64,000 bases of DNA, from positions 1 to 64,000 of the IMG/VR virus record IMGVR_UViG_3300030117_007673; one strand, given 5' to 3'. Source of the stretch: a virus. Below, piece after piece: positions 23,368 through 54,440 of this stretch; the first letter of the stretch is position 1, and each line of letters opens with the position of its first letter. The position numbers and the translations under genes are program-made. Below the pieces are notes generated by a model. It ran no database searches. It saw only the letters and a list, made by a program, of their open reading frames with translations, and had not been told where the DNA came from.

Positions 23368-26300
23368 ATGAGCATAAAAGATCTATTCAATAAAGAACCA
23401 TGGCCCAGAATTTTATCTTCTGATTCTATAAAAAATGTCGGCAAAGACGTTGAATCAGAGAGATATATTCAGGCTCATATTGTTGATAAAGATCAATTTG
23501 TGCCGTTTGTTGATTTCGAAGAGCCTGAAAATTTTGCAAAATTCGGTCTAGCCTCAGAGTATTACGAACAGTCAATAAAGAGAATCTATCAGACATATCC
23601 ATATGATGGCTCTTTATATGAAAAACTGCTTTGGCATAATAGCTCTTCTTATTTGGACAAGTTTATTTTTGAACACAAATATCCAAAAACCACTGGATAT
23701 GTAAATTTATCTGTAGCCGGCTGGACGAAAACTATATTAGATACGGAAACTGGTTACGGCGCTCCAGCTTCGGCGTCTCATGAATATATTTTATTCAAGG
23801 GAGGTCCGAATACCGGTTCGGCAGGCCTATCTTTACATGAAATGTTCCCATCTAATGATGGTGATGCAAATGTATTCAATGTTGGTCAAAACAGAGAATC
23901 TAATTTAACAATTGACGGTAATGAAGGAAACACAGTTGAATTCTGGCTTCATAAAAGCGCTTTCGATAATAGCAGAACATATAAGGAAGTTATCGTTGAT
24001 GTTATGCATACAGGCACTTCTGCTTCGCCAGTTTCGAAAAATACTTCTGCATATTCTCGCTTGAGGATTGAATTATCAGGTCACAGTCACGGTAGCGCAG
24101 CTAAGTCTCCATTTTATGTAACATATGTTTCTGGAGCCGGCGGATTCGGATGCACAAACATTGGACAAAATATTACAACCTCAAGCATTGCAGATTCTAA
24201 TTGGCATCATTACGCTTTCGTGTTCGAAAATACAGGAAGCAATGTACAGGCAAAATTATACATAGATGGTCGTTGCAATGATTCTATTATATCAGGATCG
24301 ACTGTCGATTATTTAAGTGGTGCTATGGTTGGCACCATCGGCGCGCTAGTTGATTCTCCAAAATATTATGCCGCAGATAACTCGAGTGACACTTCAGAAG
24401 TTTCTATATACAGCGGGAACGCTATTAAGCGTGGCTGGGGTAAACTATCTGCTTCTTTAGATGAATTCAGGTTTTGGAAGGTGGCCAGAACACCACAAGA
24501 AGTGGGACGTCACTGGAGAACACACATCGGTGGAGGCACAAATACAGATTTAGCCAACACGCATTTGGGAGTTTACTATAAATTTAACGAAGGCACCACA
24601 GGTGTAGCCAGTACAGATTCCAAAGTTTTAGATTATTCAGGTAGGGTTACAAACGGAAACTGGATCGGATATCCCGGTTCTAGTGCCCGCCATTCAGGAT
24701 CCGCTGTAACTATTGCAGGTCATGGTCAGGAAGAAAAAGATCCTATCATTTATTCGTCACACACTGATGTTGCTCAACTCTTAGACGACTTGAAAATCAA
24801 GGGTAAAGAGCATGATTACAGAAACAATTCTGCGATTTATAATAGTATACCTCAGTGGATTACGACAGAAGACGAAAACGGCGGCCTGAAAAACCTAACT
24901 CAAATCTTGGCCAGTTATTTTGATACTTTATCATTACAAATTTCAGCTTTACCAAAGATAAAGAACGCTAGCTATGTTTTGGATGGCTACGCCAGTGGAA
25001 GTGTTAGTGGAAGTTCAAAACCTCTACCTTTTGCAGAAAGATTGCTACAAAATTCAGGGTTTTTGACGTCAGAGATATTTGCCGGCGCACCTGTTATATC
25101 TAAAGTTCTATCAAGAGGCGAAGACAAATATTACGAAGAAAAACTTCATGATGTAAAAAACTTAATATACCAGAACATTTACAATAACTTAACTTACATA
25201 TACAAATCAAAGGGTACAGAAAAGTCTTTAAGAAACTTTATTCGTTGTTTTGGTATTGATGATGAATTAATTAAAATTAATGTCTATGGTGACAACACAA
25301 CTTATGATTTTACAGACAATTATAGATATACGGTAACTAAGAAGAAATACGCTAATTTTTTCCATACTAGTAGCATGGACGCTACAGTTTATCAGATGTC
25401 TTCCAGTACAAATGCTGATTCTGTATCTTACATATCTGGTACCTTGGGTACTGCAGAGCTTGAAGGAAAGTTAAGTAGGGGCTTTGCTCACACGATGGAA
25501 GCAGAGGTCATTTTCCCTAAAAAGATTAACAATTTGGAATCGTCCAATTTTTTCAATTCAAGTTTTAACGAAGCATCACTATTTGGTATTCGACAAGCAC
25601 AAGTCGATAAAAACGCTACTCAATACGCACAGGGCGGAAACACGACGTGGAAATCTCCAGATAATGCCAGTATACAAGTATTAGCTGTTAGAGATAAAGA
25701 AAGATCATCTGCAGCTTATTTTAAATTAACCTCAAGTGTTTTCACTCTTAATATTTCTTCATCAACTTTTAATGATGTTTATGATGACCAAAAATGGAAC
25801 TTTGCATTAAAAATATTACCAGGCGGTTCTGGCTCTGCCAATTTAACTAGCGGCAGTATACACAAAGATGCTAAAGTGGAATTAATTGGTGTTCACGCCA
25901 CTTCGGACCAAGTTTATAAAAAATTCAATGTATCAAGCAGCATTAGCACTACGGATTACGAAAAATTTGCAAATTCTGCCAAGAGGGTTTATGTTGGTGC
26001 TTCTAGAACAAATTTTACAGGAGCACTGGAAACTCCTAGTGATGTGAAAGTTTCTTCTGTTAAGTATTGGCTCTATGATGTACCAGGAAGCACAATAGAA
26101 GCGCACGCTCGAGACGCATCTAATTTTGGAATAAATGAACCATATCAGCATGCTTACTTATTTCAAAATGATGTCAAAGGCCAGTATATTCCGAAAATGG
26201 AAACCTTATTGCTTCATTGGGATTTTGAAACAGTAACAGGTTCAGATTCTAATGGGCAGTTTGTCGTTGAGGACGTGTCCTCCGGTTCAATTAAGACCGC

Positions 26301-29300
26301 TTCAGAAAGATATGGATGGTTGGGTCAGATATTAAAGAATCAACACACAGGACGTGGTTACGGATTTACTGCTAACAAGAGAACTGAAGTCATAGACAGG
26401 AACTATCTGCCGTCCGCAAAAAGTAAGTTACCAGAAGTTCTAAACAGTTCGGATATGACGTCTGTTAGGACTCAAGACGATATCAATTTCACAAGAGAGA
26501 CCAGACCGACAACTTACTTTATTTCAATTGAAAAAAGTATGTATCAGACAATTTCTGAAGAAATGATTAATTTCTTTGGAAGCGTAAAAGACTTCAATAC
26601 TTTAATTGGAGCACCTGTCAATAGATACAGGATGTCTTATAAAAGCTTAGACAAACTTAGGAATCTATTTTTTGAAAGAGTTAAGAACACTCCAGATCTT
26701 GAAAGATATGTTGAATTTTACAAATGGGTTGACCATTCTATAGACAGAATGATAGAGCAGTTAATTCCTGCGTCCGCTGCGACATCTGCCGGAATTAGAA
26801 CAATTGTGGAAGATCATATATTATCTAGAAGTAAATATCGTTCAAAAGCTACGGCTATTGAGCAAAAATTTGACGACCCGGAAGGCAGCTTATTTGGACT
26901 TGGCGAATTATCTTATAATTGGAAGTTCGGACATGCTCCAATTAATGATTTTATAGGAACTGGTGGCATCACGTATGATGTTTCTATAAATTACCTCCTT
27001 AATGAAAATTTTGAAGCCGCAGGGGAACAGGCAGGTGCAAGTGGTAGTCTCCCGCTTGGGTGGACTATTGGTGGCCCCACAACTGCTACTCATCCTGCAG
27101 GGTGGAGAACGATAAAGGGTCCAACACCTTCTCACCCTCAAACAGGCCCGACCGGATCATTCGATCAAGATCACTATATGTACGCGGAAACTTCGGCTCC
27201 CAATAATCCAGCAAAGGTCTTTGCATTACAAACTCCGTCAATTAATGAGCGTCAAGACATGGCTTCCGGCTCGAAAGGAGTTGGCGATTTCGGAGCTAGT
27301 TTTTACTACCATATGCATGGTGCAGATATAGGTATATTAAAGGTTCAAGCCATTGAAGTGGGGACGCCTTGGGTTAGTAGTTCTGATGTGCAGGTTGTTT
27401 GGGACGTTGGAGGGGCACATCAAACCTCGTCAAGACAATTGTTGGGACAACAACAGACGCATGCTTCTGCTGATTGGAGAAAGGCTTATATCGATCTAAG
27501 AGAATGGCAAAGCAGAACATTCAAACTTCAATTTCATTATACTGCAGGTGGTACATATCGTGGTGATGTGGCTATCGATTTGGTACAAATATCTGGAACA
27601 AATGACGATATTAGCGCGGAAACAGGAGTAACTAAAACCCCTGTTAGAGGTGACGATAATTGTCTTTGGTGGGATAAGCGAGCCGAAAGAAAGAGCGCAG
27701 CCTTTATAACTAAACATAGCGAATTCAGAGAAACTGTTAGAAGAATTAAGAACACTCAAGTAAGTGGAACAAGCTTTAGTGCTAGACACTTGTCACGACC
27801 ATATAGATTTAATGCTGACTTGCGAAAACCTTACACTCAAGGTGTGAATTTTGAAAACAAGAAGACAGATTTCGTAAAAGCCGCCCTTGCAGAAGTTAGT
27901 AGTTTAACAAGTAGTAATTACCTTTTTGTTAAAATGCTTAAAAATCCTGCGTGCAATGACGTTTATAATCCTAACAAGAAGACAAAAATTGCAACAAAAA
28001 TAACAAATGTGTCAGCAAAAGGGGATCTTCTGCTTCCGTTTGGATTATATGAAACCGACGTTAAAACTGGCTATAACCTATCGATAAAGAACAAATTATC
28101 TGGCAACTTGTCTTGGAATGCTGATGTGGGTGAGATGACTTGGGCCGAACAACCACCAGAACGGGCTAACGTCGATGTCACAAATCTTCACCATGATACA
28201 TATAGTAGCAACGGTGCAACTCTACAAGGTCCGTTTGCTGAAAAATATGTAGGCGGCATGGCCCATCGTCACACAGAATTAAATATTGGTGCTGTAGACA
28301 CCCAAGACAGCAGAGCAGAAGGGTTTTTAGTTGAATTTGCTTCCGGTAGTATTCGAATTGGTTCGCCAATGATCGATCTTAAAAGGCCACGATCACTTGT
28401 TTATAGAGATGAGGTGGCAAAACGGCCTGTCAATATTAAGAATATAAAACAAAAGATCACGCTGGACTCAAACCTTAATACAAAAAACGCTACAAAAATT
28501 GGCAACTACGAAAAAGATTATCAGATTGTGCAAACATCTGGTAGAACGTCGAACAGTAAATGGTTCGCACAAAATAATGGTGCTGTTTCATCTTCTGTTG
28601 CTTCAACGTATATATCAGGCGCTTTCCCAGATATGAAGATACTCAACGGAAGCGGAAGCGTAATTGATTTCGCCTTGCCAAACAGAACCAGACATTCGCA
28701 TGTCTTTGTGGAAAGATTCTCTGCACCTGGAGACCCCGCAACGATGGGGAGAGGCTATTTGGATGTCCTTGGGGAAGAATATTCAGTTTATAATGCGATG
28801 CCTTGGAGAAACTTGACAGTGAGAAATCCGTTGACAAGGTTGTTGTCGCAATCTTGTCCTCAGTTTGGAGGCGAATTCAAATCTGCAGCGATTGCGACTG
28901 TAGCAGTGGCTGATGGCGATGCAGCCAGCGGCATGACCGAGAAAGAACATATCACAATTACTGATACAAGTGGGCTAACAAAAAGATATGTCGTCACCGA
29001 CTCCGACAAAGACGGCTCAACGGCCACTGGCACTGTCTTAAATGATGCTGCCAACACAGACACTGGTGCCGGCACAGCTGGCGCAGCCGAAGATGGCGGA
29101 ATCGCTGTAAGTATTGACTTAACTGGGACTCCCGCTACTCAAAATACATTCTTGGTACAACTTAAAGCTGCAATAGAACACGCCAATGGTCACAATGGTT
29201 CGATCACAGTATCTTCAGTGCCAGGTTCTGCTGATGGCGCTCAACTAATTACGCTAACACAAGCTATCGCAGGTAACAACGGCAATACTGAAATTACCAC

Positions 29301-32300
29301 TGATATATCTCAGCTCACTGTATCTCCCAAGAGCCTCTCTACAAATGGTTTTTCTGGCGGCCATACCGGCCCACACAATGCAGGTACGACGGGCCGCGCG
29401 TCATATCACAAAGTACACAGAAACACAAGATACAGAATTGAACATTCTGCGTCGTTGCCAATCAGAGTGGAATCTTTCTCAGCGTCTGTGGGTCATAAAA
29501 CTGGCTCAGTTAACGACAATGCCTTCATAACCCGTCCAATTCCGCAAAGTGATTTGCAATATGCTTGGATTACATCTTCAGCCATGTATGTGACCGGTGC
29601 CTTTGCTGTGCCGGTCGCTGTCGGCCATTATAATACTAATTATAGTCAGGCTTCCGCAGGAAACCCCCATATGATTCGTACAAATGGCACTTCAAAGGTA
29701 CCATTTGGATATCAGCAGCCAGACCACTCGCTCGCTAGCAAGGCTTCAACTGATATTGTATTTCTTAGTCAAAGCGCAATGGGTAGTGGACAATATGCGG
29801 ACTGCGGAGGGGATGTTAATGAAAAACATCATCGTGCTTACCCGTATGCTTCAGACGAAAGCCTTGTTTGGTCGAACCGTCGATTCATTCCAGTAGATTT
29901 TGCTAATCTTAATTTTAATATATATGAGCCGGTAACATCAAGTCAAAACTTGTTGGGATATGAATCCCATGATATCCACTTTGTCGCCGCTGATACAGGG
30001 TGCGGTGGCCATTATCATGATTTTAATTACAAGGGTAGTTTAGCAAGCTTTGCAAACATACACGCTACGAGTCACCCTGGAACGTGGGCATATGCAGGTG
30101 CAGCCCGGGCAAACCAACAGTTAAAACGATTTTCTGCTACTTTCTTAAATTCAATTCTTCTAAATCGTAATGGTCCTTATGGCTGGCCTATTTTCAAGCA
30201 AATACAAGGTGGAAGGCACCCTGTTATTCGAGAGCATAATAAGACTAACACTTTTTCATATTTGCATCCGCAAGAAAATTTTGAAATTGCTCAGAACAGA
30301 ACAGATCCTGTCAGTTATAAAGAACAATTGCTTCCAAAAAATCAAGTTGTTGTACCTGTTACAAACAGATATAGACCAATTGAACAAGACGTATATGCGA
30401 CCACAAGAATGTCAACAGGACCTGCCGGTATCCCAGGGAAAAGCGATAACAATATTACTGTATTAAGATACACCCATGGTAATAATATGAATTATTTCCC
30501 ATCGTTAAAAAACGCTCCTGTAAGCGATTTGGATATGGCTTTTGGATTGGTTAAAAATGAAAAAACTCTTTATGATCATATAAAGAAGCAGATTAAAAAG
30601 CCTGCACCTTCTTTAATTTTAAATTCTATAAAGTATAAAGAAGTTGTTTTTCCTAGAGAAGAGAATACATATCGCAAAAGAAATAGAGGAAGAACGGATT
30701 ACGCTGAAGTTGCGGGGTATGAGTACAAAGGATTTGATCATGCTACGGCTTCAAATAGGTTCTGGAGAGATGAAAGATCAGACAGATTGAGAACAATGGG
30801 TCAAGCGAGAAATTCGATGGGGTACACAATTCTCTCGTCTTCCCATGATATGACCCCTAACAGTAGTGGGGATCCAAATCAGGCGATTCTAACCGGTTCT
30901 TGGTTCCGCTATGGGCTAAGTTCTTGGCCACTAGATTCGCAAATATCCTCTTTGTCTGGAGCTGCTAGCGCTTCGCAGACTGGAGAGTTGTTGGTTTGGC
31001 CTGGAAATACATTTAATAGAATTATGCATGGAAGAGGAACCAGGCAAAAAGAGCCTCCTTTTGTACCACACACTGCTTCACAAGCATTTTGCTATTATCA
31101 GCATTACGGATTGCATAATGTTGGAAAAATTGACACCGTTTCAATTGCTCCATATTATTATCAAACTTTGGCCACTCCTCCTCATACTGTAGGGGCTCAC
31201 TTTATGGGCGCGACCTCTATTAATGCCGGCGAATATTATTACTTATATCATTTTATGCCTAAGTGGAGAGCAGCAGAAATAGCAGGCAAAAATCCTTGGT
31301 ATGATACATATGAAGATTATGCAGATGATGTTAGATCAATCGGTCAAGAATATTCAATAGTTCCAGAGTTTAGAATTTCTCAACATATGGATTATCATTT
31401 GGATAAAGACAATTTCTTTGAAAAAAACAATAAGTTTTTGACATTGCAAGGGGGCGATATCGCTTCTAGCTCACTTACTCCAGCGTCTCCATTTGATCAC
31501 GATTTCTTTAAAGTTTATACACATTCTGATTTTATGAGACATTTTGAAGGCGTAAGAAGTGATTATGGAGAATTTCAAACAATTTCACTTACCTGCAAGG
31601 GCATAAAGAAGCTTCTTCCATATAACGGATTTTATCCAGTTAATAGAAGTGTACAATTAGGTTCTTTGTTCTCTGCTTCTTATTGTACTCCGCAACATGT
31701 TACTTCTTCAAATCCATTTGAATTCAGTCAACCCGAACTCGGGATTACTATCCCATGGGAAGGTCAGCCGAGCATCGCACAGAGAACTCAAACAATGATA
31801 CAACCATTTTTTGCTCCTGGGATTATGTATAACACAATCAAATCTGGAATTGCAGTTGACTGGCCCGCGTATACTGCATCCGCTGATGATTCCGATATAG
31901 ATTTCAACCCTCCAGCTGTATACTTTTATGGTCCGAGCACTACACACTATGCCCATCTCCCAGGTAAAGGTATAGGCGTATCAGGAGTCACTGGTCACAG
32001 TATGAGATTTCCTTTTGATGCTTTGCTAGCACCAGAGGTTTATTTTCCAAAGATTGAGAAGGATGGGCAAATTATTAAAAAAGGTAGATTACTAGGTGTT
32101 AACTTGCCAGTAGCTACTTCGATGTCTGGGGCAGCGGCAACGTCTAATTATCCTTACGTCTTGTCGCTGAACGACAACGCAATATGGCTAGGCAACAGCC
32201 CAAAACCGCAATATAGTCTTGCTATGCACAATTTCTTAGCTGAAGTTCCAAGATTCTTTTTGCAAGATGAGAGGTTAACTAGTTTTGTTTCCGACAAAGG

Positions 32301-34803
32301 GCCTTTCTCTTTAGCGGCAGGGACAAGCTATTATATGGATGTTGTCCTTAGTAAAAATAAAGAAATGATTATGTATGAAGGGCCACAGTGGGAATTCAAC
32401 GCCCCGGTCCAGGAATCTTCAGCTTCGATCATACTTGACTCCTTCGGGGGCGACGCTGCGTCCGCGCGCGCGACTCTGGACACAGACACCATAACAATTG
32501 TTGACAATGCGGGCACTTCAAAGGTTTATATTTTTGACGACGATAACGACGGCTCAACGGGTACCACAGATGGTTCTGGGAATGTTCGAATACAAATAAA
32601 TGGTCTGACAAGTTCCTGCGATGTAGCTATACAAGTACAGGCAGCCATTGAACACTCAAACGGTCATAATGGTTCGATCATTGTGCGCCGTGACGGAACC
32701 AACGCACGCGCAATTGCTTTGAGACAAAAATCTACTATCGTCGCTGCCACGGCTATTACCTATACAGCGAATGGCACCGGCGGCACCCCATACGATCTGA
32801 TCCACCAGTTTGCCAATTATAAAGGCGATAACCCTTCCGGGATCGCCTCACCAGGCAAATATTCTGGTTTCGGAGATAAGGATAGAGGCAATATGTTCAC
32901 TGGAAGCGCAAGAGGCATACATTATGGCCCGGCATGTGACGTCACTCAGTCAGCGCACACCGAAACCACCATACATATGAATAATGAGTTAGGCGTAGTA
33001 AACTGCAGAGATCCAGCCTATGCTCCTTACACTCCTCCATATTTTTATGGCGAATCAGTTGCTAGATTTAAGTTTACTCCTGAACAACATAGGCCAGGAT
33101 TGAGCGAAGGCGACATAGCAACTTTTTCAGTTGAGGAAATTATAAGAGGGGTCGAGATAGAAATGGAACAGGCTACTTCCGGCTTTAATCCCAATCTCTC
33201 TGCCAGCTTCAGAAATGCTTGGACAGTTCCACAAGAAGCGTCACTTTCACGCGATAGTCAAATGACAATTGATGCGTCAATTAATTTATTTGGCAGAGCT
33301 AGGCTTAAAGAGGTTGATTACAGAACTCCACTGGGCGTTTCTCGTCAACTTGGAGATACAGGTAAATCTTCTAGAGCATTTTTTGAGCCCATATCCGCAA
33401 AAGATCCTGAAAATCCTGACGCGTTTACTTCATGGGTTATTGGTCCGCATTTTGAAACTCCAATATTAAATTTTTCTGGTAATGCTGAAGGTTATCATAC
33501 TCGCGGAATGTGGTTTGGATATGGAGATGTACCAAAAGGAGAGGACGGAATATTCTTACAAATAAGAGAAAGTTTTCCTGAACTTATTGGTGGCAGCCTG
33601 GGTGTAGCAAATAGAGATGCTCGACTTAACGATACGACCTCTCAAAGATTAACAGGTTCTCTGAAAGAGATTCTTGGATTTGGAAAGTCTAGAACTAGTC
33701 CCACAAAGAAGCTTGGTAGAATTGCTGCACATAAAGAAATTTCGGAAGCGGTTGTTGCAATTCCTATATATAGGCGAGCCGGCCTAGACCAGTTTGTAAA
33801 CATCAGACAGGAAGAAATTGATAAAGCTTTGGGAATCATACCCGGAGAAACTGGTGTTTCAATACAAAATATGGTTGACACAATGAGGGAGTATGTCATA
33901 CCGCCACAACACAATTTCTTGATAAATGATCAAGTTGACCCATTCGTGATGTATATCTTTGAATTTAAACATACGTTGGATAAAGATGATTTGAAAGATA
34001 TTTGGCAAAATCTTATGCCAAAAATTGCCATGGCAGCAGAAAAAGATGAGGTTACTTTAACTCACGATCTCGGGCCTAATGAATTTTTCGGTTCTCGCCC
34101 AGATGTTGAGCCAGGAGACCCTGTTGTTCCAGAGAATTTGAGATGGGTGGTTTATAAAGTTAAGAAAAAAGCAAGTAATAACTATTATAACGTAACACTA
34201 GACAACAGAGACGATAAAAGATTCCAATTTGAATTCGCGGTTGATAGTGATACCAGACAGTTACCATACAGTTACAACTGGCCATACGACTTCTTTTCTC
34301 TAGTAGAGCTTGCAAAGATTGAAGCCGAGGTAGAAGTCAGGCGAGAAAAAGAAGTTGTTGGAGGGAATTCTGTGCTTAAAATCGATGGTACCACAGAAGA
34401 TCGCTACAACCCAGGGAGAGATTCTATGGATTCTGAGGTAATATCAGAAGATGAAGAAGTTGATGAGCTGCCACGGAAAATGGCGATAGCTGACGACGCT
34501 CCCGAACCCTCAATGCGGCAAACAGAAAGTTCTTCTGAGTCACCAAGGCGAGAAATACGAACTAGTAATTTGCTCACAACGAGGACAACAGAGGAAACAA
34601 CGGAAGAGGCTACAACAATGCAAACTCCTCCAAGAACTCAGACAAGGGGAGGGACTCAGATAAGAAGTGATCGAAGGGCTACAAGAGGCGGTGGCGGCAA
34701 TGGCGGCACAACAACTCGCAACCGCGATGTCCGTGGCGGCGGCGGAGGTGGTCGTGGCGGCGGCGGAGGCGGCGGTGGTGGTGGCGGTCGCGGTGGATAT
34801 TAA
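23368..34803 (+). CDS. Giant (3811-residue) tail/baseplate structural protein with LamG-like and repeated inserted domains
   Basis: One 11.4 kb open frame. Residues about 180-430 form a LamG/concanavalin-like beta sandwich (NTVEFWLHKSAF ... SNWHHYAFVFENTG ... LDEFRFWKVARTPQEV). A second sandwich-like region follows near 720-930. Two related domains lie at about 1838-1990 and 3017-3147 and share DDDxDGSTxT-like and AAIEHxNGHNGSI segments. The middle has many aromatic and His residues. The tail end (about 3700-3811) is disordered, rich in Ser, Thr and Arg, and ends in a run of Gly with a few Arg. The place after gp6-like and the size suggest a long baseplate-attached adhesin or gp7/gp10-type wedge. 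Carbohydrate binding is plausible for the LamG-like part. Confidence 0.6.
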   Translation: MSIKDLFNKEPWPRILSSDSIKNVGKDVESERYIQAHIVDKDQFVPFVDFEEPENFAKFGLASEYYEQSIKRIYQTYPYDGSLYEKLLWHNSSSYLDKFIFEHKYPKTTGYVNLSVAGWTKTILDTETGYGAPASASHEYILFKGGPNTGSAGLSLHEMFPSNDGDANVFNVGQNRESNLTIDGNEGNTVEFWLHKSAFDNSRTYKEVIVDVMHTGTSASPVSKNTSAYSRLRIELSGHSHGSAAKSPFYVTYVSGAGGFGCTNIGQNITTSSIADSNWHHYAFVFENTGSNVQAKLYIDGRCNDSIISGSTVDYLSGAMVGTIGALVDSPKYYAADNSSDTSEVSIYSGNAIKRGWGKLSASLDEFRFWKVARTPQEVGRHWRTHIGGGTNTDLANTHLGVYYKFNEGTTGVASTDSKVLDYSGRVTNGNWIGYPGSSARHSGSAVTIAGHGQEEKDPIIYSSHTDVAQLLDDLKIKGKEHDYRNNSAIYNSIPQWITTEDENGGLKNLTQILASYFDTLSLQISALPKIKNASYVLDGYASGSVSGSSKPLPFAERLLQNSGFLTSEIFAGAPVISKVLSRGEDKYYEEKLHDVKNLIYQNIYNNLTYIYKSKGTEKSLRNFIRCFGIDDELIKINVYGDNTTYDFTDNYRYTVTKKKYANFFHTSSMDATVYQMSSSTNADSVSYISGTLGTAELEGKLSRGFAHTMEAEVIFPKKINNLESSNFFNSSFNEASLFGIRQAQVDKNATQYAQGGNTTWKSPDNASIQVLAVRDKERSSAAYFKLTSSVFTLNISSSTFNDVYDDQKWNFALKILPGGSGSANLTSGSIHKDAKVELIGVHATSDQVYKKFNVSSSISTTDYEKFANSAKRVYVGASRTNFTGALETPSDVKVSSVKYWLYDVPGSTIEAHARDASNFGINEPYQHAYLFQNDVKGQYIPKMETLLLHWDFETVTGSDSNGQFVVEDVSSGSIKTASERYGWLGQILKNQHTGRGYGFTANKRTEVIDRNYLPSAKSKLPEVLNSSDMTSVRTQDDINFTRETRPTTYFISIEKSMYQTISEEMINFFGSVKDFNTLIGAPVNRYRMSYKSLDKLRNLFFERVKNTPDLERYVEFYKWVDHSIDRMIEQLIPASAATSAGIRTIVEDHILSRSKYRSKATAIEQKFDDPEGSLFGLGELSYNWKFGHAPINDFIGTGGITYDVSINYLLNENFEAAGEQAGASGSLPLGWTIGGPTTATHPAGWRTIKGPTPSHPQTGPTGSFDQDHYMYAETSAPNNPAKVFALQTPSINERQDMASGSKGVGDFGASFYYHMHGADIGILKVQAIEVGTPWVSSSDVQVVWDVGGAHQTSSRQLLGQQQTHASADWRKAYIDLREWQSRTFKLQFHYTAGGTYRGDVAIDLVQISGTNDDISAETGVTKTPVRGDDNCLWWDKRAERKSAAFITKHSEFRETVRRIKNTQVSGTSFSARHLSRPYRFNADLRKPYTQGVNFENKKTDFVKAALAEVSSLTSSNYLFVKMLKNPACNDVYNPNKKTKIATKITNVSAKGDLLLPFGLYETDVKTGYNLSIKNKLSGNLSWNADVGEMTWAEQPPERANVDVTNLHHDTYSSNGATLQGPFAEKYVGGMAHRHTELNIGAVDTQDSRAEGFLVEFASGSIRIGSPMIDLKRPRSLVYRDEVAKRPVNIKNIKQKITLDSNLNTKNATKIGNYEKDYQIVQTSGRTSNSKWFAQNNGAVSSSVASTYISGAFPDMKILNGSGSVIDFALPNRTRHSHVFVERFSAPGDPATMGRGYLDVLGEEYSVYNAMPWRNLTVRNPLTRLLSQSCPQFGGEFKSAAIATVAVADGDAASGMTEKEHITITDTSGLTKRYVVTDSDKDGSTATGTVLNDAANTDTGAGTAGAAEDGGIAVSIDLTGTPATQNTFLVQLKAAIEHANGHNGSITVSSVPGSADGAQLITLTQAIAGNNGNTEITTDISQLTVSPKSLSTNGFSGGHTGPHNAGTTGRASYHKVHRNTRYRIEHSASLPIRVESFSASVGHKTGSVNDNAFITRPIPQSDLQYAWITSSAMYVTGAFAVPVAVGHYNTNYSQASAGNPHMIRTNGTSKVPFGYQQPDHSLASKASTDIVFLSQSAMGSGQYADCGGDVNEKHHRAYPYASDESLVWSNRRFIPVDFANLNFNIYEPVTSSQNLLGYESHDIHFVAADTGCGGHYHDFNYKGSLASFANIHATSHPGTWAYAGAARANQQLKRFSATFLNSILLNRNGPYGWPIFKQIQGGRHPVIREHNKTNTFSYLHPQENFEIAQNRTDPVSYKEQLLPKNQVVVPVTNRYRPIEQDVYATTRMSTGPAGIPGKSDNNITVLRYTHGNNMNYFPSLKNAPVSDLDMAFGLVKNEKTLYDHIKKQIKKPAPSLILNSIKYKEVVFPREENTYRKRNRGRTDYAEVAGYEYKGFDHATASNRFWRDERSDRLRTMGQARNSMGYTILSSSHDMTPNSSGDPNQAILTGSWFRYGLSSWPLDSQISSLSGAASASQTGELLVWPGNTFNRIMHGRGTRQKEPPFVPHTASQAFCYYQHYGLHNVGKIDTVSIAPYYYQTLATPPHTVGAHFMGATSINAGEYYYLYHFMPKWRAAEIAGKNPWYDTYEDYADDVRSIGQEYSIVPEFRISQHMDYHLDKDNFFEKNNKFLTLQGGDIASSSLTPASPFDHDFFKVYTHSDFMRHFEGVRSDYGEFQTISLTCKGIKKLLPYNGFYPVNRSVQLGSLFSASYCTPQHVTSSNPFEFSQPELGITIPWEGQPSIAQRTQTMIQPFFAPGIMYNTIKSGIAVDWPAYTASADDSDIDFNPPAVYFYGPSTTHYAHLPGKGIGVSGVTGHSMRFPFDALLAPEVYFPKIEKDGQIIKKGRLLGVNLPVATSMSGAAATSNYPYVLSLNDNAIWLGNSPKPQYSLAMHNFLAEVPRFFLQDERLTSFVSDKGPFSLAAGTSYYMDVVLSKNKEMIMYEGPQWEFNAPVQESSASIILDSFGGDAASARATLDTDTITIVDNAGTSKVYIFDDDNDGSTGTTDGSGNVRIQINGLTSSCDVAIQVQAAIEHSNGHNGSIIVRRDGTNARAIALRQKSTIVAATAITYTANGTGGTPYDLIHQFANYKGDNPSGIASPGKYSGFGDKDRGNMFTGSARGIHYGPACDVTQSAHTETTIHMNNELGVVNCRDPAYAPYTPPYFYGESVARFKFTPEQHRPGLSEGDIATFSVEEIIRGVEIEMEQATSGFNPNLSASFRNAWTVPQEASLSRDSQMTIDASINLFGRARLKEVDYRTPLGVSRQLGDTGKSSRAFFEPISAKDPENPDAFTSWVIGPHFETPILNFSGNAEGYHTRGMWFGYGDVPKGEDGIFLQIRESFPELIGGSLGVANRDARLNDTTSQRLTGSLKEILGFGKSRTSPTKKLGRIAAHKEISEAVVAIPIYRRAGLDQFVNIRQEEIDKALGIIPGETGVSIQNMVDTMREYVIPPQHNFLINDQVDPFVMYIFEFKHTLDKDDLKDIWQNLMPKIAMAAEKDEVTLTHDLGPNEFFGSRPDVEPGDPVVPENLRWVVYKVKKKASNNYYNVTLDNRDDKRFQFEFAVDSDTRQLPYSYNWPYDFFSLVELAKIEAEVEVRREKEVVGGNSVLKIDGTTEDRYNPGRDSMDSEVISEDEEVDELPRKMAIADDAPEPSMRQTESSSESPRREIRTSNLLTTRTTEETTEEATTMQTPPRTQTRGGTQIRSDRRATRGGGGNGGTTTRNRDVRGGGGGGRGGGGGGGGGGGRGGY
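28881..29340 (+). repeat. Inserted beta domain, copy 1, within the giant structural gene
   Basis: This in-frame segment encodes about 150 residues, including ITITDTSGLTKRYVVTDSD, a DGSTATG-like turn and AAIEHANGHNGSITV. The same plan is found again at 32418-32810. Flanking sequence reads on as ordinary structural protein, so the domain appears inserted into it. The segment is visibly richer in G and C than its surroundings. Exact edges are estimated by eye. Confidence 0.55.
32418..32810 (+). repeat. Inserted beta domain, copy 2, within the giant structural gene
   Basis: This segment encodes about 130 residues with TITIVDNAGTSKVYIFDDDND, a GSTGTTDGSGNV turn and AAIEHSNGHNGSIIV. It is related to copy 1 at 28881-29340 but clearly diverged. 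It is GC-rich relative to neighbours (for example GCGTCCGCGCGCGCGACTC), which supports separate acquisition of the module. Boundaries are estimated. Confidence 0.55.
34686..34800 (+). repeat. Poly-glycine, Arg-dotted low-complexity tail
   Basis: The last 38 codons of the giant gene are almost all GGC, GGA, GGT or GGG, interrupted by Arg and a short TTTRNRD break, and end in RGGY. Codon choice for Gly is mixed, so this is maintained at protein level and not a simple DNA slippage run. Poly-Gly stretches occur in phage adhesins with polyglycine helices and in RGG-type disordered tails. Which applies here cannot be decided. Confidence 0.7.
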
Positions 34804-49144: not shown

Positions 49145-50086
49145 ATGGAAGGAGAAAAGCTCCAACTTCTAAAAAGTATTTTTGGGAACTTCCATCATTC
49201 CAATGACGAACACTTATTCTATTGCCCAAAATGCAAACACCACAAGCGAAAGCTTTCTGTTAATTTAGATAAAGACGCTTTCAAATGTTGGATCTGTGAT
49301 TATCATGGCCGTTCTCTTCGCCGTCTTGTGCGGAAATATAGTGACTTTCGCACATTACAACAATGGGACAAATTAAATGGTAGAGAAGATGTAACGAAAT
49401 TTGATGATATATTTTCAGAATATGAAGAAGTCGAAGAGATACAGAGAATTGACTTACCAGAAGAGTTTTTATCTCTTACAAGCCAAAGCCAATCTTTATC
49501 AATGATACCGGCAATAAATTATTTGAAAAACAGAGGGATAACAAAAAAGGATATCATCTATTGGAAAATTGGTTTTTGTATGCGAGGGGAATATAATAAT
49601 AGAATTATTATTCCTTCTTTTGATGAAGACGGGTATGTGAACTACTTTGTCGCGAGAACGTTTAATGGCGCATGGAAAAAATATCTCAATCCCCCTGCGT
49701 CAAAGGATATAATATTCAATGAGCTTTATCTAGATTTTGACAAGGATCTTGTAATTGTTGAGGGTATCTTTGATGCAATAGTTGCCGGCCCAAACTCTGT
49801 TCCAATTCTTGGCTCTACTTTACGCGAAAATTCGAAACTGTTCCAACAAATTGTAAAGAACGATACTCCAGTTTATATTGGTCTAGATGTTGATGCCGAG
49901 AAAAAATCAAAGAAGATAATAAAAGATTTATTAAATTATGGTATTGAAATTTATAAGATAGATACATCAGGGTTTGACGACATCGGTTCGATGACAAAAG
50001 ATGAATTCACAAAGAGAAAAAATGAAGCGGCATTATACGATTCTAATGACTACTTATTATACGAAGCGTTAGGAGAAATAAAATGA
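49145..50086 (+). CDS. DNA primase, DnaG/gp61-type
   Basis: A 313-residue protein with a zinc-binding N-terminal domain (C27, C30, C48 and C51 in YCPKC and CWIC) followed by a TOPRIM core. The first TOPRIM acidic residue is E206 in LVIVEGIFDAI, and a DxD follows as D248 and D250 (LDVDAEKK). These mark a primase that makes short RNA primers, as T4 gp61 does with helicase gp41. Its length is similar to gp61 (342 residues). No helicase domain is fused. It overlaps the following small Cys-rich peptide by four bases (ATGA), which suggests coupled translation. Confidence 0.8.
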   Translation: MEGEKLQLLKSIFGNFHHSNDEHLFYCPKCKHHKRKLSVNLDKDAFKCWICDYHGRSLRRLVRKYSDFRTLQQWDKLNGREDVTKFDDIFSEYEEVEEIQRIDLPEEFLSLTSQSQSLSMIPAINYLKNRGITKKDIIYWKIGFCMRGEYNNRIIIPSFDEDGYVNYFVARTFNGAWKKYLNPPASKDIIFNELYLDFDKDLVIVEGIFDAIVAGPNSVPILGSTLRENSKLFQQIVKNDTPVYIGLDVDAEKKSKKIIKDLLNYGIEIYKIDTSGFDDIGSMTKDEFTKRKNEAALYDSNDYLLYEALGEIK

Positions 50087-50187
50087 AAGGCTTTTTACAC
50101 AGAGTTAAATATATTTTAAGTGATGAACATTGCTGCTGCTGTTGTGGTTGCTGCGCCTGCGAAGATTGCAATTGCAAAAATAGATAA
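50083..50187 (+). CDS. 34-residue cysteine-rich peptide
   Basis: This small gene was found by reading the region by hand. ATG at 50083 overlaps the primase stop as ATGA and has AGGAGA eight bases upstream. The peptide has a basic, partly hydrophobic N-terminus (MKGFLHRVKYILSDEH), then ten Cys among residues 17-31: five in a row (17-21), then 23, 24, 26, 29 and 31. His16 precedes them. It ends in KNR. Such density suggests metal binding of metallothionein type or a disulfide-rich peptide. No signal sequence is clear. It could instead be a zinc-chelating accessory to the primase. The frame and ribosome site make it a real gene candidate. Confidence 0.65.
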   Translation: MKGFLHRVKYILSDEHCCCCCGCCACEDCNCKNR

Positions 50188-50209: not shown

Positions 50210-50404
50210 GTGGATTTGAATACAACAGACAATCTAAGTGAAGGTGACAGAAGAGCTATCGTAGATCATTTTGCAAAAGAGGTGGTAAATATTACTCTTC
50301 GGAATACAAACGGTGATTTTAGTTTAGCAAAAAGCATCTTTTTTAAAGCTGCTTCTCAAATTCAAAAGCAAATAAAGGAAATGGAAAATGAAGATCTCGA
50401 CTAA
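50210..50404 (+). CDS. Small helical protein of unknown function
   Basis: A 64-residue protein read from GTG at 50210, with AAGGA about ten bases upstream (spacing on the long side). It is helical and charged (AKEVVNITLRNTNGDFSLAKSIFFKAASQIQKQIKEME). No catalytic or metal motif is seen. Its last 17 bases overlap the next gene, consistent with coupled translation. Family is not recognised. Confidence 0.55.
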   Translation: MDLNTTDNLSEGDRRAIVDHFAKEVVNITLRNTNGDFSLAKSIFFKAASQIQKQIKEMENEDLD

Positions 50405-50696
50405 TAGACTCAAACAAATTATTAAAGAAGAAATTGAAAATCTAGAAATGTCCGAACTAGACGAACAGGAAGAAATGCCTGGCGAGGAACCAGCAGCTGC
50501 AGAAAAGCATCAATCAGATGTGGAAAAAATAAAAATGCTTATTCCTAGAATTAACACTAGAATAGAAATGCAAGAGTTGTTGGAAGTCGCATTATCTCAC
50601 ATTGTTGTATCAAAAGATGGCCTCATGGCAATGAGAAACGTTCTTGGCTCTGCGATTGCTGGCGCTTTGGTTAAAAAGTTGGGCACTAAAGTATAA
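50388..50696 (+). CDS. Small protein with N-terminal LKQIIKEEI segment
   Basis: A 102-residue protein that begins MKISTNRLKQIIKEEIENL, followed by a Glu-rich stretch and a helical C-terminus (ISHIVVSKDGLMAMRNVLGSAIAGALVKK-like). The opening matches a segment found twice in the next protein, so this short amphipathic helix looks like a shared tag. Function is unknown. It ends on TAATG, coupled to the next gene. Confidence 0.55.
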   Translation: MKISTNRLKQIIKEEIENLEMSELDEQEEMPGEEPAAAEKHQSDVEKIKMLIPRINTRIEMQELLEVALSHIVVSKDGLMAMRNVLGSAIAGALVKKLGTKV

Positions 50697-51226
50697 TGAT
50701 GCTCACAAAGTCACACTTTAAACAGGTTGTCATGGAGTATCTTCTTAAAGAAGAAGATCTTGCCAGAAAAGTTCAAGACAACGAAGATTACCTTACCAGG
50801 CTTAGATTAGCGGTAAGTGAATTGTACGGCCATTATCGCGAGCTTAATGCAGATATAGACGACTTGCGAATAGATCTTAACGATTATATGAGCACGGGAG
50901 AGAAGCCAAGTAGATTTGCAGAACCGGATGTTATCCCTGGTAGGGCAAGTATGTCCATTGATACTAATCCCGGAGGGAAGCCAATGATGGAAAAAGTAAA
51001 ACTAACAAAATCAGAACTTAAAAAAATCATCAAAGAAGAGTTAGATTCAAGATATGAAAAAATGTATGAAAAGAATGATGCATCAGAACTTCGTTTATTG
51101 TATAATGAATTTGTTGATAGTCTTCGGGACACTATTACGTGGCATTCCGCGCTAATAGAGCTTGACGAGCGGATCAGAGACAAAATAGAATCAATTGAAA
51201 TAAGATTGAATGAGCTTGCAAAATAA
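50696..51226 (+). CDS. Helical protein with two LTKSxLKKIIKEEL-type segments and a possible internal start
   Basis: A 176-residue protein that overlaps the preceding stop (TAATG). The first segment, LTKSHFKQVVMEYLLKEE (3-20), is an imperfect version of a second, LTKSELKKIIKEEL (103-116). The second segment follows two consecutive Met codons at 97 and 98, and GGAGG lies seven bases before the first of these (50984). The second half could therefore be made on its own as an 80-residue protein, or two genes have fused. No enzyme motif is seen. A short spacer with a promoter follows. Confidence 0.55.
   Translation: MMLTKSHFKQVVMEYLLKEEDLARKVQDNEDYLTRLRLAVSELYGHYRELNADIDDLRIDLNDYMSTGEKPSRFAEPDVIPGRASMSIDTNPGGKPMMEKVKLTKSELKKIIKEELDSRYEKMYEKNDASELRLLYNEFVDSLRDTITWHSALIELDERIRDKIESIEIRLNELAK
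50972..50986 (+). promoter_or_regulatory. Internal ribosome site and ATG
   Basis: GGAGG (50972-50976) is seven bases before ATG 50984, in frame with the surrounding gene, just before the second LTKSxLKKIIKEEL segment. It could yield an 80-residue product (50984-51226). This is unusual within a gene and worth testing. Confidence 0.45.
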
Positions 51227-51284: not shown

Positions 51285-54200
51285 ATGAAGTTCGCCCATC
51301 TTGCGGATACGCATATTCGCAATTTAAAATATCACTATGAATATCGTGCGATATTCGAGCAAATATATAACAAACTACGAGAAGAAGAAGTGGACTATAT
51401 TGTTCATTGCGGAGATCTCGCACACACAAAGACGCAACTGAGTCCTGAATATTTTGAGATGGCATCAAGCTTTCTTAAAAATCTGGCAGACATTGCGCCC
51501 ACCTATATAATCCCCGGAAACCACGATGGAAACCTGCGAAATTCTAATAGACAGGATGCCATCACTCCAATCGTTGAGGCCCTAGAGCACCCAAATCTGT
51601 TCCTTCTGAAGGCATCTGGTGAGGCACAAATAGACGACAAGTTCACTCTTAATGTGCTTTCCGTTTTTGACGAAGAGAACTGGATCGATCCATCTAATGA
51701 AGATAAAATAAATATTGCACTTTACCATGGATCCATTTCCGGAGTCAAAACAGATCTTGGATGGACGATGGAACACGGCGAAAATGACGTGTCAATCTTC
51801 AATAAATTTGACTTTGCTTTTCTTGGAGATATTCACAAGACAAATCAAATATTAGATCGCAAAGGCACAATTCGATATCCTGGAAGTACGATTCAGCAGA
51901 ACCATGGAGAGTCCAATGATAAAGGTTTGTTGATTTGGAATATCCGTGAGCGAGACGATTTCGACGTCAAACATATTTCTTTTATAAACCCAAAGCCATT
52001 TATCACAGTCAATCTTACACCAAAAGGCAGAATCCCAAATAAGACAGAAGTTCCAGAGGGTGCTCGACTTCGTTTGGTTTCTAATAACAATCTTTCATTA
52101 GATGTTCTTAAAAAATCAGTTGACGTTGCAAAAGCTAGATTTAAACCAGAAAGCGTAACGTTCTTGAACAGGGCTTCTGGAGACAGAACAGATATTACAG
52201 ATTCAATTAATAATATATTTCAGGAGAACCTGAGAGACTCTGCTGTACAAAAAAGACTGATCAAGGATTACTTAAAAGATTATAGCCCTACTGATGATGT
52301 GGTAGAGAATGTATTAGAACTTAACAAAAAATATAGCTCCGCTGTAGAGGAAGATGAAGAGGTCGCTAGAAACATTAATTGGCGTCTCAAAAGTGTTGAA
52401 TGGGATAATCTATTCAATTACGGCGAGAGTAATAAAATTGATTTTGAAAAATTAAATGGAGTTGTAGGAATCTTTGGGAAGAATTTTTCTGGCAAATCTA
52501 GCATTATCGATAGCATGCTATATACAGTTTATAATTCTACCTCCAAGAACAACCGAAAGAATTTGCACTTAATCAATCAGACGAAAGACTCCTGTCGAGG
52601 TAAGGTTGAGATTACCGTTGGTCACAATGTTTATGAGGTTGAGAGAATTTCGGAAAAGTATGAGAAAAAGCTTCATGGCAACACAACGGTTGAAGCAAAG
52701 ACGGATGTTGAGTTTTCAAAGCGCGATGAAGTTGTTGGAGAAGATATCAGTCTAAATGGCTTATCAAGGAACGATACCGATAAGAATATCAGAAAGATGT
52801 TCGGCACGATGGATGATTTTTTGCTTACTTCAATGGCCTCTCAGCTTGGCTCTCTTATGTTTATTAGCGAAGGTTCAACAAGAAGAAAAGAAATCCTTGC
52901 CAAGTTTCTTGATCTTGAGATGTTTGAGCGAAAGTTCCGACTAGCAAAAGAAGATGCTTCTGATCTCAGGGGCATGCTTAAAAGACTGGAGGGGACAGAG
53001 TTTGATGAAAAAATCGAAGAAGTGAAAGAACAACTTAATAATATTGAAAATGAAGTTGAGAAACAAGAAAACTCTTGTGATGAAATTACAGACAAGATAG
53101 AGAACTATCAATTACAAGTAGAGGCTATTAATGAAAAGATAAAAGTCATTCCAGTTGAGATAATTGATATAGAAGAGGTGGAAAAATCCTTAGAAGACAA
53201 GGGGAAAGAAAAAGATTTATTAACCGGCAGAAGCAAGAAGTTTTCTGATAATATCAAAAATAATAAAGATCTTCTAGAAAAGATTAAAAAATTCTTGAAT
53301 AATGATTTTGATATTGAAGAGATTAAAAACAACAAATCTATCGTTGTTGATAAGCAAAATCAATTAAATTTAATTTGTAATGATATCAAAGTTCATGAAA
53401 CTAAATTAAAAGTAAAAGAAGGCAAAGCTGCTCTTTTAGAAGAAGTACCTTGTGGTGAAGAGTTTTCGCATTGCAAATTTATTAAAGATGCTTACGGTGC
53501 ATTACGACAACTTGATGAGGTCAAGAAAGAGATAGCGGAGTTAAGAACATCAGAAGAAAAAACATCCGACGAAATTCAAGAACTAAATCCAGAAAAGATT
53601 GAAGAACATATTGAGAAATATGATGAGTTGCTTAAAAAAGAGAATGAGTTAAATTCTGAAATCTCTTCATACGAATTGGAGATTCAAAAAAACAAAACGA
53701 AAATTGTTGGATATAAAAAAGAGATTGAACAATTGAATGAGAAGGTGGTAGAATATAATAAGAACAAGATGGCGATTGAAGATTTGGAAGCCCTAAATTT
53801 TGAGAAAGATAATTTTTTGAGAGCTGTAGTGGAAGAAAAGGAAAACTTGTCGACATGTCAGAACCGTCTTATTGAGCTTTCCAAGGAGCATGGATCGATT
53901 GAACAAGCTCTTAAAAATCTTGAAGATGATAAACAGGAGCTTCACGATCTTCGTGAGGAGTATGCTGCTTTCGATCTCTTTATGAGGTGTATGCACTCAA
54001 ATGGTATTGCTTACGATATCATTAAAAAGCGTCTTCCGATTATTAATTCAGAAATTGCAAAGGTGTTAGCAAATATTGTAGACTTCGAGGTCTTCTTTGA
54101 AGCAGAAGACAAAAAGCTTGAAATATTTATCAAGCACCCAAAATTTGATGCGAGACCGATTGAATTAGGGTCTGGTTCAGAAAAGACAATTGCTGCCATG

Positions 54201-54440
54201 GCTATTCGCTTGGCGTTATTGAACGTTTCTAGCCTTCCAAAACCAGATCTTTTTATTCTTGACGAACCAGCAACCGCGCTGGACGAAGAGAATATGGAAG
54301 GCTTTATCAGAATTTTGGATATGGTTAAATCATATTTCAAAACCGTTCTTCTAATCTCTCATCTGGATACATTAAAGGATTGTGCAGATATGACGATTGA
54401 GATTGAGAAGAAAGACAACTATGCTTATGTTAATTATTAA
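51285..54440 (+). CDS. Fused SbcD-SbcC (gp47-gp46) recombination nuclease and ATPase
   Basis: One 1051-residue protein combining both halves of the Mre11-Rad50 pair. Residues 1 to about 350 are SbcD/gp47-like: FAHLADTHIRN, VHCGDLAH, IPGNHDGN and FLGDIHKT supply the metal-binding Asp, His and Asn. Residues about 370-1051 are SbcC/gp46-like: Walker A GKNFSGKSS (about 396-404), long coiled coils, a hook with C723 and C730 (a CX6C and not the usual CxxC), signature ELGSGSEKT, Walker B LFILDEPATALD and SHLD. In T4 and Escherichia coli these are two genes. The complex resects DNA ends for recombination-dependent replication. A strong promoter precedes it. Confidence 0.9.
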   Translation: MKFAHLADTHIRNLKYHYEYRAIFEQIYNKLREEEVDYIVHCGDLAHTKTQLSPEYFEMASSFLKNLADIAPTYIIPGNHDGNLRNSNRQDAITPIVEALEHPNLFLLKASGEAQIDDKFTLNVLSVFDEENWIDPSNEDKINIALYHGSISGVKTDLGWTMEHGENDVSIFNKFDFAFLGDIHKTNQILDRKGTIRYPGSTIQQNHGESNDKGLLIWNIRERDDFDVKHISFINPKPFITVNLTPKGRIPNKTEVPEGARLRLVSNNNLSLDVLKKSVDVAKARFKPESVTFLNRASGDRTDITDSINNIFQENLRDSAVQKRLIKDYLKDYSPTDDVVENVLELNKKYSSAVEEDEEVARNINWRLKSVEWDNLFNYGESNKIDFEKLNGVVGIFGKNFSGKSSIIDSMLYTVYNSTSKNNRKNLHLINQTKDSCRGKVEITVGHNVYEVERISEKYEKKLHGNTTVEAKTDVEFSKRDEVVGEDISLNGLSRNDTDKNIRKMFGTMDDFLLTSMASQLGSLMFISEGSTRRKEILAKFLDLEMFERKFRLAKEDASDLRGMLKRLEGTEFDEKIEEVKEQLNNIENEVEKQENSCDEITDKIENYQLQVEAINEKIKVIPVEIIDIEEVEKSLEDKGKEKDLLTGRSKKFSDNIKNNKDLLEKIKKFLNNDFDIEEIKNNKSIVVDKQNQLNLICNDIKVHETKLKVKEGKAALLEEVPCGEEFSHCKFIKDAYGALRQLDEVKKEIAELRTSEEKTSDEIQELNPEKIEEHIEKYDELLKKENELNSEISSYELEIQKNKTKIVGYKKEIEQLNEKVVEYNKNKMAIEDLEALNFEKDNFLRAVVEEKENLSTCQNRLIELSKEHGSIEQALKNLEDDKQELHDLREEYAAFDLFMRCMHSNGIAYDIIKKRLPIINSEIAKVLANIVDFEVFFEAEDKKLEIFIKHPKFDARPIELGSGSEKTIAAMAIRLALLNVSSLPKPDLFILDEPATALDEENMEGFIRILDMVKSYFKTVLLISHLDTLKDCADMTIEIEKKDNYAYVNY

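Follow-up and report, generated by a model that had tools for sequence, protein, structure and literature searches.

A conserved ten-cysteine micropeptide family of uncultured phages and its putative metal-thiolate cluster

The closest described counterparts of the phage peptide analyzed here are the bacterial metallothioneins of the SmtA/BmtA type (Pfam Metallothio_Pro) and the copper thioneins. SmtA/BmtA proteins are very small and cysteine rich, and they combine Cys with His ligands in a number similar to that available in the phage peptide; in SmtA, the ligands are nine Cys and two His. In yeast Cup1, a Cu(I) cluster is held by ten cysteines, which is the same number of thiols as in the phage family. 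The similarities do not extend to sequence. SmtA/BmtA proteins show no sequence match and carry spaced CxC/CxxC motifs, whereas the family described below is phage-borne and has a packed CCCCCGCCxC run preceded by an N-terminal amphipathic helix. Likewise, a sequence relation to Cup1 or to the mycobacterial copper thionein MymT was not found; these proteins differ in cysteine spacing and lack the helix, and metal binding by the phage peptides is putative. A comparison of another kind is offered by the internal head proteins of phage T4 (IPI-III and Alt), which are likewise small, non-essential phage proteins. They are diverse, with only a capsid-targeting-type sequence common to them (PMC3012670, PMC9958956).

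The window analyzed here is a stretch of 64,000 nucleotides that forms part of a 132,130-base IMG/VR virus record. On its plus strand, positions 50083..50187 encode a peptide of 34 residues, MKGFLHRVKYILSDEHCCCCCGCCACEDCNCKNR, directly downstream of a 313-residue DnaG/SPO1-like DNA primase (49145..50086, plus strand; phrog_47, E=6.6e-43). The start codon at 50083 and the TGA stop of the primase gene overlap as ATGA, and an AGGAGA Shine-Dalgarno sequence (50070..50075, plus strand) lies within the 3′ end of the primase gene. Residues 1–16 (50083..50130) comprise the N-terminal amphipathic helix and an invariant histidine, His16, and residues 17–31 (50131..50175) comprise the Cys block, CCCCCGCCACEDCNC, which is the putative metal-thiolate cluster. 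Its ten cysteines occupy positions 17–21, 23, 24, 26, 29, and 31, all within 15 residues of the translation. The DNA pattern of the Cys run has a single occurrence in the window, and 100 dinucleotide shuffles produced no copy of it. The original prediction had described this reading frame, including the five consecutive cysteines, the ATGA overlap, and the ribosome site, correctly throughout. Reading frames of such small size are usually passed over by gene finders. At the other end of the size scale, a single 3811-residue ORF is present at 23368-34803 of the window, downstream of a baseplate wedge gene.

Homologues were sought in IMG/VR viral sequences. The short pattern CCCCGCCxC gave about 120 matches on viral contigs, most of them unrelated TGC-repeat frames without common flanks, and cysteine density is therefore weak evidence of a gene. 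Degenerate DNA patterns yielded 78 viral stretches, and a helix-based pattern added a few members, some of which lack the canonical Cys block. After removal of duplicates and chance frames, 74 distinct full-length peptides remained, with about 75 distinct relatives overall. They range from 31 to 49 residues and share one architecture: a cationic amphipathic helix with the consensus MKxxLH[RK]LxNLFNxxH, then CCCCCGCCxC, then two cysteines at varying positions. A profile built from 59 members matches the window peptide at E=4e-12. The absence of conservation that was to refute the original prediction was not observed: small ORFs resembling the window peptide were found at the same position behind related primase genes (L003, L004, L005, L007, and L008), with both the cysteine spacing and the ribosome site conserved. 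In a further locus (L001), a cut-off copy lies behind an inserted tagged gene and is matched by the profile at E=4.5e-4.

The degenerate DNA pattern demanded the first eight cysteines, so their conservation is partly selected. The helix lies outside that pattern, with the exception of His16, and its conservation is thus independent evidence: H(-10) is retained in 71/74 members, L(-8) in 69/74, and F(-4) in 68/74. Comparisons of close pairs indicate purifying selection, with a pN/pS of 0.21 in the helix and of 0.034 in the Cys block, the latter value being partly selected by the search pattern. Conserved cysteines are encoded freely by TGC and TGT, which indicates that selection acts on the protein. 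Translation signals accompany the family, a Shine-Dalgarno sequence of at least 4 nt preceding 88% of members compared to 18% of random ATGs. Operon placement is equally consistent; the upstream gene shares the strand of the peptide gene in 75/75 cases and overlaps it or lies within 40 nt of it in 61/75. Late-promoter-like motifs were found upstream of only four members. The gene is usually present in a single copy, as 22 of the 23 motif-bearing records contain one motif copy and the remaining record contains a second, degenerate one. In L135, on the reverse strand, the intact gene and such a degenerate second Cys motif are separated by about 140 bases (~1589 and ~1729). Because the helix and the Cys block recur in about 75 distinct peptides that have start codons and ribosome sites, the suspicion that a real small gene had been overlooked is borne out, and the ORF at 50083-50187 almost certainly represents a new, conserved family of phage micropeptides.

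In IMG/VR, dozens of bacterial viruses that are large and uncultured carry the gene. Searches with tblastn in phage records gave no match, although low-complexity masking probably hides the Cys block from such searches; ten whole records were for this reason searched with the profile, and no member was detected in immuto, Mel-JY01, HTVC008M, P-SSM2, T4, P-TIM40, C48C1, S-SZBM1, VH7D, or a 484-kb uncultured phage. A distant blastn search with one member as the query also gave no match. When 84,980 bacterial and archaeal genomes were scanned for the exact pattern, one chance frame and one true member were returned. The true member lies on a contig of 101,404 bases in a Halobacteriovorax MAG; the contig is also listed as viral in IMG/VR, as judged from equal length and an equal sequence pattern. 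A profile scan of 369 genomes from the phylum of this MAG recovered only the same member. The bacterial chromosomes and the reference phage genomes covered by these searches thus yielded no relatives.

Scans against Pfam, NCBIfam, PHROGs, and the PDB gave no family match other than weak AT_hook matches to the tails of a few members. Among the 59 members scanned, none was matched by a metallothionein model of Pfam or NCBIfam at E<=1, and none by a Pfam zinc-finger model. A literature search on phage metallothioneins, or on the N-terminal tags of neighboring genes described below, returned no relevant report. In a general sense, the peptides resemble metallothioneins, being small and about 30% cysteine (29% at 34 residues to 32% at 31 residues in the common untailed members). 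They do not resemble classical zinc fingers, which have spaced pairs (CxxC ... CxxC) in place of a CCCCCGCCxC run with drifting distal cysteines; the Cys block is too compact for such a fold, in agreement with the initial assessment of its density. The peptide may act like a metallothionein, yet it lies outside every described metallothionein family.

The total number of cysteines is ten in 67/74 members and nine or eleven in the other seven. After position +10, two distal cysteines are present in 69/74 members and three in 5/74, never fewer, and they occur in 15 arrangements, such as CxxCxxxC, CxxxCC, and CCC. Since the thiol number is fixed while the distal geometry drifts, number appears to matter more than geometry, which is the behavior anticipated for a metal-thiolate cluster. 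Such a cluster tolerates changes of geometry at a constant count and a disulfide framework or a zinc finger does not, although the nearly even cysteine counts would fit disulfides as well. An extra histidine in the Cys domain is found in 2/3 members with nine cysteines and in 3/71 others (Fisher p=0.011, post hoc), and L145, the sole member without the helix histidine, carries eleven cysteines; these observations are hints of metal ligation and do not prove it. The helix has a net charge of +1 to +4, mostly +2 to +3, and a mean hydrophobic moment of 0.64, and its polar consensus residues His6, Asn10, and Asn13 are conserved nearly as strongly as its hydrophobic residues. Because the helix is cationic, strongly amphipathic, and conserved in polar positions too, its probable role is docking, either to the surface of a membrane or to a partner. 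AlphaFold2 (AF2) predicted a helix at residues 2–12 and little else, at a low confidence (pLDDT 63) that lends the cluster no geometric support.

Based on these features, we infer a ten-cysteine metal cluster and docking through the helix. In this model, the ten cysteines, together with His16 and the helix residue His6, would enclose a small number of soft metal ions (Zn or Cu(I)) in a single metal-thiolate cluster in the course of infection. This cluster would be docked by the cationic amphipathic helix to a membrane or to a single conserved partner protein, and the docked peptide would buffer, deliver, or withdraw metal at that site. Judged from the sequences, the proposal that the family consists of such docked, intracellular metal-thiolate peptides stands about an even chance of being correct. 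Metallothionein-like metal binding, as the original prediction had it, is accordingly retained as the best-fitting reading in view of the fixed thiol count and drifting spacing, while membership of a known metallothionein family is not. Whatever its activity, the gene is missing from two close relatives (L002 and L006), indicating that it is not essential in that lineage.

The gene neighborhoods bear on alternative functions. In the window, the peptide gene is followed on the plus strand by a 64-residue ORF (50210..50404), a conserved downstream neighbor that also occurs in L003; by a gene beginning MKISTNRLKQIIKEE... (50388..50696), whose N-terminus resembles a capsid-targeting tag; by another tagged gene beginning MMLTKSHFKQVVMEY... 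(50696..51226); and, in the same gene cluster, by a 1051-residue nuclease (51285..54440). The nuclease joins SbcD-like and SbcC-like parts in one protein, with PHROGs matches to phrog_100 (residues 1-365, E=1.3e-31) and phrog_77 (residues 289-1050, E=1.1e-49). Across the family, the peptide gene lies directly after a primase gene in only 14 loci. In five loci (L040, L082, L141, L174, and L175), a Peptidase_M50 site-2-type membrane protease is encoded directly upstream (E=4e-57), and in four the gene abuts the prohead protease (L139 and L185) or lies in the portal region (L054 and L138). Other sites are near a PHP-domain polymerase, a baseplate gene, arrays of small genes that include tagged ones, or a tail sheath-like gene, the sheath being assigned by eye from a fragment without a Pfam match.

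The tags of the downstream genes take the form MKITKxQLRQIIKEE or MKxLLxEWRKYLxE. Both forms have an [LI]xE end and are similar to the capsid-targeting sequences of T4; by analogy, they look like a capsid-targeting system of these phages' own that would be cut at [LI]xE by a gp21-type protease. Consecutive small genes with common tags and unrelated bodies occur at 50388-51226 of the window and in L176, L188, L022, L023, and others, with about a dozen in series in L176 and L188. In L058, a 664-residue protein encoded ~2.9 to 0.9 kb upstream of the peptide gene combines an HD domain (HD_4, E=3e-7) with an N-terminus that resembles the tags (NWQKYLRE); it may be a virion-borne nucleotide hydrolase.

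The surroundings of the gene could point to a virion-packaged internal peptide that is produced alongside the head proteins, travels in the capsid, is injected with the DNA, and acts on the new host in the manner of T4 internal proteins, whose diversity beyond the targeting sequence would match. Tags are enriched at the downstream positions d1-d4 (73/228, or 32%, compared to 28/257, or 11%, farther away, in loci that are mutually related, so that the significance is overstated), 25 of 28 searched records encode a T4-type prohead protease (PF03420), among them the record that contains the window (at record positions 70595-71047), and the prohead protease and portal placements are in keeping with such a role. 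Unlike the T4 proteins and its own neighbors, however, the peptide has neither an N-terminal tag nor the [LI]xE cleavage end. Its helix was considered as a tag of the neighbors' type and rejected: scored with the helix profile, which fails to recognize the neighbors' tags, QII tags fall below unrelated N-termini and EWR tags slightly above them. A strict head role is also at odds with gene positions near a DNA polymerase, the site-2 protease, or a tail sheath, and we regard packaging as unlikely.

A regulator of nucleic acids or the transcription machinery, in the form of a small Zn-cluster protein with DNA or the host RNA polymerase as its target, is suggested by the C-terminal tail of four distinct full-length members (L003, L004/L005, L152, and L162) and of the N-terminally cut L119. 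This tail is basic and contains an AT-hook-like RGRP core, the feature shared with AT-hook proteins (PF02178). The tail reads RRRGRPRK in these sequences, and the window member ends before it, as about 70 of the 74 members lack it. The best PF02178 match (E=0.18, 12.2 bits) is below the cut-off of 17.4, and known zinc fingers are less compact than the Cys block, which makes a regulator of this kind quite improbable.

Alternatively, the charge and hydrophobic moment of the helix would suit a membrane-active, toxin-like peptide that inserts into the host membrane with a disulfide-stabilized Cys head, as would the even cysteine number in 67/74 members. Parity was rejected as proof of disulfides, given the seven members with nine or eleven cysteines, and the drift through 15 distal arrangements is unlike a disulfide framework. 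The cytoplasm is reducing, no signal peptide-like segment is evident by inspection, and the conserved polar residues of the helix suggest a specific contact. The disulfide-rich toxin put forward originally thus has less support than metal binding, and we consider it improbable.

The translational overlap in the window and the 14 loci directly behind primase genes speak for a primase accessory that supplies zinc to the primase zinc finger, a zinc supplier to the primase having been raised in the original prediction. The gene is elsewhere in most carriers, however; G003 encodes both genes far apart, and records of several primase relatives (L002, L006, and L010-L015) contain no copy, so a zinc supplier is very unlikely. 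The near relatives G001 and G002 lack the peptide gene, which marks the post-primase site as a place of small-gene exchange. Finally, a chance Cys-rich frame in TGC-repeat-like DNA, conceivable only in that the Cys pattern by itself matches many unrelated repeat frames, is refuted by the homologue set, with its conserved helix, synonymous drift, Shine-Dalgarno sequences, operon coupling, and homologues at the same position.

The family therefore adds a gene that uncultured phages conserve, usually as a single copy, and that is absent from the protein-family libraries searched. More tentatively, and with somewhat less than even confidence, its sequences suggest a new class of phage metal-thiolate micropeptide, docked to a membrane or a partner, that would control the Zn or Cu supply of the infected cell in many uncultured T4-like phages. 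The peptides are short enough for synthesis, and the key tests would be quick. If metal is bound, the peptide would be a phage-borne metallothionein-like peptide, and viral control of Zn or Cu would become directly testable.
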